NCBI GenBank assembly: GCA_027004715.1
Contig: JALTHG010000089.1
Location: forward strand, 1 to 45,716
Source of the DNA: Deltaproteobacteria bacterium
GTDB taxonomy: Bacteria; Desulfobacterota; Dissulfuribacteria; Dissulfuribacterales; UBA3076
Length of the DNA: 45,716 nt
Reading direction: 5' to 3'
The notes under the pieces are model-generated. The model was given only the letters and a program-made list of their open reading frames with translations. It was not told the DNA's origin and made no database searches. This document shows positions 10,193-45,545 of the stretch, in pieces (the first letter of the stretch is position 1; every line of letters begins with the position of its first letter). A program made the translations under genes and the position numbers.

Positions 10193-10282
10193 TATTTCCT
10201 TCCTTTATCTTTGATTAGTAGCTGGTTTTGGTAACCGATTACAGGCTGCTTCTTTTTTTCAACATGCTCTTCCTACAGAGCT

Positions 10283-12858: not shown

Positions 12859-12930
12859 CCCCTCCTGGCCGTCAGGTTTCAGGGGCAGCCTGATGCACAG
12901 AATCAGGCACTCTGCCTGTCAATCCGCAAA
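12859..12930. repeat. Family B partial copy (B4), retains the central module
   Basis: AGGTTTCAGGGGCAGCCTGATGCACAGAATCAGGCACTCTGCCTGTCAATCCGCA versus B2 GGGTTTCAGAGCACACCTTGATGCACAAAATCAGACACTTTGCCCGTTAATCCGCA. Confidence 0.65.
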
Positions 12931-14874: not shown

Positions 14875-14969
14875 CCCCCTCCTGTTGGAACCTTTAGTCG
14901 CCGATCACAGGTTATGCTCCTGAGACCCTGAAAAGGGCCACCACTGACCAGGGGGATGTGAACACTTAC
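14875..14969. repeat. Family B element, internally shortened copy (B1), opposite orientation to B2
   Basis: CCCCCTCCTGTTGGAACCTTTAGTCGCC ... CCTGAGACCCTGAAAAGGGCCACCACTGACCAGGGGGATGTGAACACTTAC; matches both ends of the B2 reverse complement but lacks its centre. Confidence 0.7.
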
Positions 14970-15070: not shown

Positions 15071-15120
15071 GTAATCTAAGAGTTCACATCCCTCCTGTTG
15101 AGACGTTTACGCGCCGGCCC
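15071..15120. repeat. Family B partial copy (B3)
   Basis: GTAATCTAAGAGTTCACATCCCTCCTGTTGAGACGTTTACGCGCCGGCCC versus B2 reverse complement GTAACTGTTCAACCCCCTCCTGTTGAACCGTTTACGTCGCTGGCC. Confidence 0.6.
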
Positions 15121-24044: not shown

Positions 24045-24129
24045 ATCCCAGATTACGCACTTCAAATGCCGAACAGAATGATTTCTTTTATAATTCCAGC
24101 AGATTATCGTGAGCTGCATAATCCGGGAT
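24045..24129. repeat. Family A short intergenic element (A1), 85 bp with about 15-bp terminal inverted repeats
   Basis: ATCCCAGATTACGCA ... TGCATAATCCGGGAT; first 66 nt match 60/66 with 44832-44897. Confidence 0.8.
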
Positions 24130-25323: not shown

Positions 25324-25376
25324 GATATTGAGTTTCTGTGGCCTTTTACCGAAAAGGATAGAGAGGCAATATACAG

Positions 25377-26510
25377 GTGTCAGCTACGTATTTTTTCTCT
25401 ATAAGTGTCCTCTTTTTTCTCTGGCTCTTTACATGTGGGGCCCTTGTGCTTTCTTTAAAGAGATATAGATCCTCTAGCGAGCCCTCATCATTCTATTCAG
25501 ACCTACTTATAGGACTTGCATCAGAAAAATACCGGGAGGCAATAGATGCCTCGAAGAGATTGCGAGAGGTAGCTGATGCCCTACATATAGGTCTTGTAGA
25601 GCTTAAAGGCAGGCAGATAAAACAGATGAACCAGAGTGCCCTTGACCTGATGTCAAAAGATATACAGGCCCTTACTGAGACCCTGACCTCATTGGATAGA
25701 GACGTCCCAAAGACCATTGAGCTAAATAAGAAAATAGTCCAACTGAAGCGTCTCTCCAGCCCTGGTTCTCAGGACCTGATCCTGATACAGGATGTCACAG
25801 AGAGCTTTCTTATGGCACGAAGGCTCAGGCAACAGGAAAAACTGGCACTCTTGGGACAGATGGCTGCACATATGTCACACCAGATAAAGACTCCTATTGC
25901 CATAATAGCAGGACAGATACAGATGCTTGCAAGACACCTTGGCAGTGATGCAGGCCTCAAGGAGCAGGCCAATGCCATCTACCAAGATGCAAGAGAGCTC
26001 GCCAGACAGATAAATGAGATCTCAAATTTCTACAGAAAGAGAGAGCCCTACTTCAGAGATACAGAGCTCTGCCAGATACTCGTTAAACTAGAAAAGAGGC
26101 TGGATCCCTTAAGAGGTTCCTGTAAAATCGACATCAAATGCCCTCAAAAAATTGTATTAGAGACCGATCCTAAACTCCTACAGAAGGTCCTGTTTCTCCT
26201 TGGGCAAAATTCGCTCTCAAGAGAGACTGGTGCTACTATCCTCTCGATCAATGCAGGACTAGAAGATAATCAGGTCTCCATCAGGGTAAAAGATAATGGT
26301 ACAGGCATACCCAAATCTATACGCGACAGGGTCTTTGAGCCCTTTGTCAGCACAAAGGAAGAGGGACTTGGGCTGGGTCTCTTTCTTGCCAGAGACCTGA
26401 CCCGGCAGATAGGGGGCGAGATAGAACTAGAGGAGACCGATAGGGGCACCTGCTTTGCTCTAAAAATCCCTGTACGTCGTCATCCTCTCTGTGTCAGTTA
26501 CGTTATGTGA
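25377..26510 (+). CDS. Sensor histidine kinase (one N-terminal TM segment; no adjacent response regulator)
   Basis: H-box LALLGQMAAHMSHQIKTPIAIIAGQIQML, N-box LFLLGQNSLS, G-boxes VRVKDNGTGIPKSIRDRVFEPFVSTKEEGLGLGLFLARDL (DNGTGI, GLGLGLF). Confidence 0.88.
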   Translation: MSATYFFSISVLFFLWLFTCGALVLSLKRYRSSSEPSSFYSDLLIGLASEKYREAIDASKRLREVADALHIGLVELKGRQIKQMNQSALDLMSKDIQALTETLTSLDRDVPKTIELNKKIVQLKRLSSPGSQDLILIQDVTESFLMARRLRQQEKLALLGQMAAHMSHQIKTPIAIIAGQIQMLARHLGSDAGLKEQANAIYQDARELARQINEISNFYRKREPYFRDTELCQILVKLEKRLDPLRGSCKIDIKCPQKIVLETDPKLLQKVLFLLGQNSLSRETGATILSINAGLEDNQVSIRVKDNGTGIPKSIRDRVFEPFVSTKEEGLGLGLFLARDLTRQIGGEIELEETDRGTCFALKIPVRRHPLCVSYVM

Positions 26511-26523
26511 ATTATGGACGCAA

Positions 26524-26691
26524 GGCAACTGCTCACATCCCCCGGCCAGCAGTAGCCTTTTTCAGGGTTTCAGAGCACACCTTGATGCACAAAATCAGAC
26601 ACTTTGCCCGTTAATCCGCACTGGACCCCTTCAAAATGCTACTGCTGGCCAGCGACGTAAACGGTTCAACAGGAGGGGGTTGAACAGTTAC
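26524..26691. repeat. Family B intergenic element, longest copy (B2), with imperfect terminal inverted repeats and a long internal inverted repeat
   Basis: Ends GGCAACTGCTCACATCCCCC ... AGGAGGGGGTTGAACAGTTAC; internal perfect arms GGCCAGCAGTAGC (26544-26556) / GCTACTGCTGGCC (26638-26650); related copies elsewhere in the window. Confidence 0.8.
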
Positions 26692-26767
26692 GATGCAAGA
26701 GACTTGACAGTATCCCAGATATTGGCTCCTATGTCTTGAGGTCCCAATTCGAGATAGAAGATGTGTT

Positions 26768-27406
26768 ATGAGGGATATTGATACATACACTGGGCCAGAG
26801 GTCATAGAGAGGTGTTCCTTTGAGATCATTGAATCTGAGGTGCCTGAGCCCCGTCCCTTTAAGGGCAGTGAATGGCTTGTAGTCAGGAGGATGATCCATA
26901 CGAGTGCCGATTTTGAATTGCTATCCCTTGTCAATTTTCACCCTGATGCAGTCAGGTCCGGTATCGTGGCCCTGAGGTCAGGGTGCCTGATTGTAACTGA
27001 TACAGAGATGGCACATATGGGGATTACCTCAAGACGTATGGACCAATTGGGGTGTCGGGTTGAGTGCTACATAGGTAGGAGAGAAGTAAGGGAAAGGGCG
27101 CAAGAGAAGGGTATTACCAGGGCATCCGCGGCAGTTGATTATGCCCTGCCCAGCTTAGACAGGGCTATATATGTCGTAGGGAATGCCCCCACGGCCCTCT
27201 TGAGGCTTCTGGAGTATATCAGAGAGGGTGCATGTAATCCGGCGCTCATCGTGGGTATGCCAGTGGGCTTTGTGAATGCGGCCAGGTCCAAAGAGATGCT
27301 TATGGAGCAGGAAGGTATCCCATTTATCACTATTGAAGGACGCAAAGGGGGATCGGCCCTGGCCGCATCTGTGGTAAACCAGTTGGCCGAGATGGCCCTG
27401 GCGTAA
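26768..27406 (+). CDS. cbiC: Precorrin-8X / cobalt-precorrin-8 methylmutase
   Basis: VVRRMIHTSADFELLSLVNFHPDAVRSGIVALRSGCLIVTDTEMAHMGI, VGNAPTALLRLLE, IVGMPVGFVNAARSKE. Confidence 0.95.
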   Translation: MRDIDTYTGPEVIERCSFEIIESEVPEPRPFKGSEWLVVRRMIHTSADFELLSLVNFHPDAVRSGIVALRSGCLIVTDTEMAHMGITSRRMDQLGCRVECYIGRREVRERAQEKGITRASAAVDYALPSLDRAIYVVGNAPTALLRLLEYIREGACNPALIVGMPVGFVNAARSKEMLMEQEGIPFITIEGRKGGSALAASVVNQLAEMALA

Positions 27407-27434
27407 CCATTCACATCCTGACAGAGTCTAAGAG

Positions 27435-36983: not shown

Positions 36984-37086
36984 AAGGCCCCTTCTATTCC
37001 GCCAGGTTATACAGGATCAGATAGTACAGTCAATTTACTGTTAAGCATGGCTCAAGACAAAAGAGATATGATATACTCTAATTGTT

Positions 37087-37120
37087 CCCCCCTGGCCAGG
37101 AGGGTAATGTGAACGGTTAT
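37087..37120. repeat. Family B minimal form (ends only)
   Basis: CCCCCCTGGCCAGGAGGGTAATGTGAACGGTTAT: palindromic CCTGGCCAGG plus terminal TGTGAACGGTTA motif. Confidence 0.5.
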
Positions 37121-44831: not shown

Positions 44832-45090
44832 ATCCCAGATTATGCACTTCAAATGCCGAACAAGATGATTCCTTTTATAATTTCAGTAGATTATCGTTAA
44901 TATAATGTCAAAAAATATTCACCTAAATGGTGACAGTCTCCAACAGCAGAAACGTCCGGCATTTGAAGCCACAAGGGGCTCGCAATTTCACCGAATTTGC
45001 TGCGTTGTCGGGCACTTGAATGACCATAGTACGTCTGCGTACCCTCCGCCTTGCACCTCCGGCAAACTTGCAAGCTGCATAATCTGGGCT
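44832..45090. repeat. Family A intergenic element, long copy (A2), about 259 bp with the same terminal inverted repeats
   Basis: ATCCCAGATTATGCA ... TGCATAATCTGGGCT (14/15 inverted match); internal inverted repeat CTTCAAATGCCG (44847-44858) / CGGCATTTGAAG (44957-44968). Confidence 0.8.
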
Positions 45091-45545
45091 TATAGATTTA
45101 CCTTATATGGATTGATGGTAATGACTGGGCAAGTGGCATCTCTGACCACACCTGTTGCTACACTACCAAACATGATCTGCTCCAGACCCTTTCTTCCATG
45201 GGTCCCCATTATAATCATATCTATCCCATTTTTATTGGCATAATCTATAATCTTTTCTGCTATATCCCCTACCTCTACTATAGTCTTTACGTCTTTTATA
45301 TCAGACATGTACTCATCTACAAAGCGGCTCATTGCCTTCTCAGCACCGCCTATAAGATCCTCCTTGAGAGAAGAATACCAGGCAATACCCAATTCAAAAC
45401 CGGCATAATCTCCTGCTCCCCTCACCACATGAATGAGCTCTATTTTTGCCCCCATTTTTTCTGCCATGAATTTTACATAAGGCAAGATCTTAGGTGAATT
45501 CTCAAAAAAGTCTATAGGAAACAGAATCTTTTTGACCTCTATCAT
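45090..45545 (-). CDS. Universal stress protein (UspA family; probable start MIEVKKILFPIDFFEN at 45545)
   Basis: KKILFPIDFFENSPKILPYVKFMAEKMGAKIELIHVV; C-terminal IDMIIMGTHGRKGLEQIMFGSVATGVVRDATCPVITI. Confidence 0.93.
   Translation of the reverse strand: MIEVKKILFPIDFFENSPKILPYVKFMAEKMGAKIELIHVVRGAGDYAGFELGIAWYSSLKEDLIGGAEKAMSRFVDEYMSDIKDVKTIVEVGDIAEKIIDYANKNGIDMIIMGTHGRKGLEQIMFGSVATGVVRDATCPVITINPYKVNL

Follow-up and report, generated by a model that had tools for sequence, protein, structure and literature searches.

A high-copy MITE family with 8-bp target duplications, probably moved by an IS66-family transposase, in a Desulfobacterota genus

A palindromic block just upstream of cbiC in a Deltaproteobacteria bacterium (GTDB order Dissulfuribacterales; assembly GCA_027004715.1) is a copy of a non-autonomous MITE, probably moved in trans by an IS66-family DDE transposase. 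The block lies in the window, by which we mean the whole stretch of DNA analysed (contig JALTHG010000089.1, 45,716 nt). A MITE-like nature had been proposed for it by a first-pass annotation made from the sequence, and we identify it as a MITE because it has further copies, terminal inverted repeats, 8-bp target-site duplications in its family, an empty orthologous site and no ORF. The family is mobile with an 8-bp duplication, reaches high copy number, has no coding capacity and maintains both its ends and its inner pairing. It is a new family, of genus level, although MITEs as a kind are already known.

Copies, target duplications and inner pairing

The element has many relatives, both in its own genome (G000) and in the only congener (G001, the MAG JALTHV01), which is also its closest sequenced relative. 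BLAST with the window block located at least about 40 distinct places in G000, a lower bound because the count covers 40 of the 94 candidates, and copies in G001 were numerous; two genomes of the same order (G025, G034) gave one weak match each. The ends of the MITE in the genus read GTAACYGTTCACAT. For the exact 12-base end, which is also the family consensus, GTAACYGTTCAC, we counted 48 occurrences in G000 and 259 in G001, and none for a reversed control pattern. When we scanned genome contigs other than those of the element's own genome, a 26-base core pattern was found in JALTHV01 only.

Target-site duplications, which the first-pass annotation had named as something to look for, are present in dozens of copies and measure exactly 8 bp where the ends are intact. 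Within about 0.5 Mb of G001, an 8-bp duplication with no more than one mismatch flanked 75 of 245 candidate end pairs (47 of them without mismatch), compared with 0.73 in flank shuffles; G000 yielded 7 pairs with an 8-bp duplication, compared with 0.27 in shuffles. Among the pairs of both genomes, no other duplication length was comparably enriched. A 67-bp copy in G001 (L089, 263-329) is bounded by a duplicated ATTGCCTC, and the orthologous site in the window holds this target once, with no element. This empty site belongs to the sister copy rather than to the window copy itself, whose own flank, at the kinase-cbiC junction, is not syntenic in G001. Two other orthologous sites (window 35546 and 44832-45094) are too rearranged relative to G001 to be called empty.

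Copies with a duplication fall into size classes of 34-74, 140-152 and 168-176 bp, together with three longer ones, and all classes (34-298 bp) are too short for a transposase gene. The core form of about 147 bp has symmetric ends. The long form of about 171 bp, to which the window copy belongs, bears a second, outer end on one side; of the two ends there, the outer has remained GTGTGAACGGTTAC, and the inner has diverged to ACGTGGACGGTTGC. The mini forms have lost the palindrome, with ends and duplications intact. In two long copies of G001 (L064 964-1134 and L189 6713-6884), the orientation of the core with respect to the extended end is reversed, which suggests either flipping of the core or more than one origin of the long form.

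Base pairing is conserved among the copies, with compensatory changes. The two outcomes that the first-pass annotation had named as refuting its reading, a lack of further copies and unconserved pairing, are thus both contradicted by the data. In the 31-bp inner arms, 15 pairs have changed on both sides (45 cells versus 16 in shuffles), and the signal collapses when the arm partners are slid by 1-3 columns. We read this covariation as conserved DNA symmetry. Selection on the element could produce it, as could the copying of one arm onto the other, and alone it is therefore no proof of RNA function.

The copy at cbiC and other copies in the window

The first-pass annotation had delimited the block at 26524-26691 (168 bp). 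The block itself stands, but the flanking 8-bp duplication sets its ends at 26525-26691 (167 bp), so that the true start is one base further in. The outer ends, noted as alike, are terminal inverted repeats common to the copies of the family, and the perfect 13-nt arms noted inside them run on as 33-nt arms at 82% complementarity. In line with the proposed hairpin, both strands fold far more stably than shuffles (z = -4.2 for the plus strand and -6.5 for the minus strand; 0 of 200 shuffles equally stable). The copy does lie just upstream of cbiC (26768), between it and a co-directional histidine-kinase ORF that ends at 26510. Its identity is 86% to the consensus of the G001 long copies, which themselves have a median identity of 91%, and 96% to its sister L002, marking it as an older, decayed copy. 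With its left end drifted to GCAACTGCTCAC, it is old and probably immobile, and a dedicated function for it at cbiC is unlikely. Further remnants of the family are scattered through the window (Table 1).

Table 1. Features of the MITE family in the window
Feature	Position	Strand	Basis
MITE copy, long form (167 bp)	26525..26691	+	alignment with 42 other copies bounded by target-site duplications; 8-bp duplication
Left target-site duplication GACGCAAG	26517..26524	.	flank comparison
Right target-site duplication GATGCAAG, 1 mismatch to left	26692..26699	.	flank comparison
Left terminal inverted repeat GCAACTGCTCACAT; family consensus GTAACTGTTCACAT	26525..26538	+	copy alignment
Right (outer) terminal inverted repeat GTAACTGTTCAACC; family consensus GTAACCGTTCACAC	26678..26691	-	copy alignment
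Inner palindrome, left arm	26544..26576	+	complementarity, covariation
Inner palindrome, right arm	26618..26650	+	complementarity, covariation
Long-form extension: degenerate inner copy of right end plus spacer	26651..26677	+	alignment; absent from ~147-bp core form
Empty target ATTGCCTC (on minus strand), once in window; duplicated around 67-bp G001 copy	25363..25370	-	
Decayed mini-form copy; near-duplicated flanks GATATACT / GATATACC	37078..37120	-	
Decayed partial copy, same family	14876..14969	-	
End fragment, same family	15077..15119	-	
Partial core fragment, same family	12875..12928	+	
Left-end fragment near contig end	45670..45707	+	
16-bp solo-end remnant at cbiC 3' end; supplies the TAA stop codon of cbiC	27403..27418	+	

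The 3' end of cbiC carries a full-length copy in G001 and a 16-bp remnant in the window, and the insertion therefore probably predates the species split; in both species, the TAA of the MITE end serves as the cbiC stop. By crude ORF calls, no ORF runs across any of 64 G001 copies, whose settings are tandem for 34, convergent for 9, divergent for 8 and unclear for 13. Of 24 long open frames that enter the element, 15 terminate at the TAA supplied by the terminal G-TAA-C, as do 12 of the 18 with at least 150 codons, where reading frame alone would predict one third (p about 0.003-0.004), a pattern that was noticed post hoc and is likewise based on crude ORF calls. For most frames stopped in this way, the end of the frame before insertion would have lain within some 30 nt.

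Candidate transposase and competing readings

The 8-bp duplication and the 5'-GTAACYGTTCA end match the IS66 family, and within it the single-ORF ISBst12 type, an assignment that we infer from ends and duplication length. In the IS66 elements that we recovered from the phylum, the ends begin with GTAA and the duplications measure 8 bp; the closest likeness to the MITE end is seen in elements with a single transposase gene (GTAACTATTCAGCA, GTAACCCTTCAGTGA, GTAACTGATCACAGG). The single-ORF elements of the phylum match the MITE end at 9-11 of 12 positions and the nearest IS66 ends at 11 of 12; an IS66 element from another part of the phylum is identical over the first 11 bases. This likeness to known IS66 ends is confined to the terminal 11-12 bases, and at position 12 the MITE has C where most IS66 elements have G. 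Two of the elements come from one genome (G330): L318, with the end GTAACTGTTCAGGGGG, a PF03050 match at 2e-26 and no matching 8-bp repeat in its flanks, and L175, with the end GTAACCGTTCAGAGGG and PF03050 confirmed; GTAACTGATCACAGG is the end of L174 from G175. ISDge4, an ISBst12-group IS66 element whose transposition has been observed, has the ends GTGACTACTCAGCA / GTAACTGCTCAGCA and an 8-bp repeat (PMC12898284). The MITE has the GTAAC..TTCA ends and the 8-bp duplication of this group (ISBst12, ISDge4; L157, L165 and L318 in our set) but differs from it in lacking a transposase gene, in measuring mostly 34-176 bp as opposed to about 1.5-2 kb, and in its long inner palindrome.

PF03050 had no match at E <= 1 in G000 or G001, both incomplete MAGs (92.8% and 89%), and the cognate IS66 source would thus be missing from the lineage, either extinct or lost, or unassembled. 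Two G001 end pairs lying 1.2-1.6 kb apart (C125, C134) were considered as autonomous IS copies and rejected; they are neighbouring MITEs, since ordinary genes lie between the ends and there are no duplications. The IS66 genes of G006 were found without matching ends. As a mechanism, we propose that an IS66-family DDE transposase, most likely of the single-ORF ISBst12 type, would be supplied in trans, recognize the 12-14-bp ends GTAACYGTTCACAY and move the MITE, whose joining to target cuts staggered by 8 bp would leave the direct repeats.

Could a different DDE transposase family that also makes 8-bp duplications have moved the MITE? Several IS families do make them, and the cognate transposase was found in neither G000 nor G001. 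We nevertheless regard this as unlikely: the GTAA(C) start and the GTAACYGTTCA end match the IS66 elements tested, whereas other 8-bp families (ISL3, IS6, IS256, ISAs1, IS1595) start differently.

Far less probable still is movement by a Y1 HUH transposase (RAYT / IS200-IS605) that takes the hairpins as its recognition signal, which would make the block a REPIN/REP element. Such elements share with the family here their high copy number, intergenic position and palindromic form, and one PF01797 fragment is present in G001. Y1 transposition makes no target duplications, however, and here 8-bp duplications surround dozens of copies, including hairpin-less mini forms with intact ends; PF01797 (Y1) has no match in G000. 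The family thus differs from RAYT-associated REP elements on both counts, duplications and transposase, and for these two reasons we rejected RAYT/REPIN as the mechanism. The G001 fragment sits at a contig end and may be contamination, since coverage of that contig is 1.4 compared with about 45 for most others.

Least probable of all is the structured leader that the first-pass annotation had offered as its alternative, a riboswitch-like RNA regulator of cbiC: it would accommodate the stable fold on both strands, the covarying arms and the position between the kinase gene and cbiC, but palindromic mobile DNA is also expected to covary, copies adjoin a wide range of unrelated genes, whether in tandem, convergent or divergent arrangement, the window block has no Rfam match, no promoter-like site was found, and cbiC in G001 has a different upstream gene and, in the stretch analysed, a copy after rather than before it (about 100 bases are N there). 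We found nothing to support regulation of cbiC by the element.

Related ends, other families and significance

The end of the IS66-type MITE proposed here reaches beyond its genus. It recurs in genus g3 of the same taxonomic family and is scattered through Desulfobacterota, with 52 exact occurrences in one genome (G113). In G113, G115 and G398, 8-bp duplications surround elements of 227-369 bp with this end, which are separate MITE families sharing a common end type, since their interiors differ. Matches to the end motif in G004 and G035 were set aside, as they fall inside or ahead of ordinary genes. We put forward, tentatively and with some doubt, that the window element may belong to a wide IS66/ISBst12-type MITE clan with GTAACYGTTCAC ends, which would have spread independently in several Desulfobacterota families and would tend to settle at gene 3' ends, where the terminal G-TAA-C replaces the stop codon.

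Other repeats occur in the same genomes. A second family, with the end ATCCCAGATTATGCA, is found at window positions 24045-24110, 44832-44897 and 45091 (minus strand), and looks like another gene-less mobile element. At 44832-45094, inverted ends of this type enclose about 260 bp, and in the G001 counterpart (L258) the second-family element is interrupted by a first-family MITE. The end type GTAACCGATCACAGG(GTGCTTC) occurs at window position 10231 and in about 15 places in the G001 loci; it resembles the IS66 end of L174 and probably represents a further IS66-type MITE family. In G005 (genus g3; L113, L124, L131), we observed a repeat of about 385 bp with 29-bp perfect inverted arms, GTAACCGTTCACAGGAAGGGGATATTTCT.

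Comparable IS-derived MITEs are known from other bacteria; MITECca01 of Cardinium, for example, derives from the IS982-family element ISCca4 (PMC9769881). Like the family here, these are short, gene-less, inverted at the ends, high in copy number, lineage-restricted and dependent on a parental transposase. Compared with the MITECca01 type, the present family has no parental IS present, a presumed IS66 parentage and three size classes. Our literature search found no description of a MITE tied to IS66 or bearing this end motif.

Bacterial MITEs are under-annotated, and this family accounts for a large share of the hitherto unexplained repeats between genes in the lineage. It provides datable insertions between congeners, and the combination of GTAACYGTTCAC with 8-bp duplications offers a simple signature for annotating related genomes. 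The stop codons supplied by the MITE end illustrate one way for such elements to become tolerated at the ends of genes.
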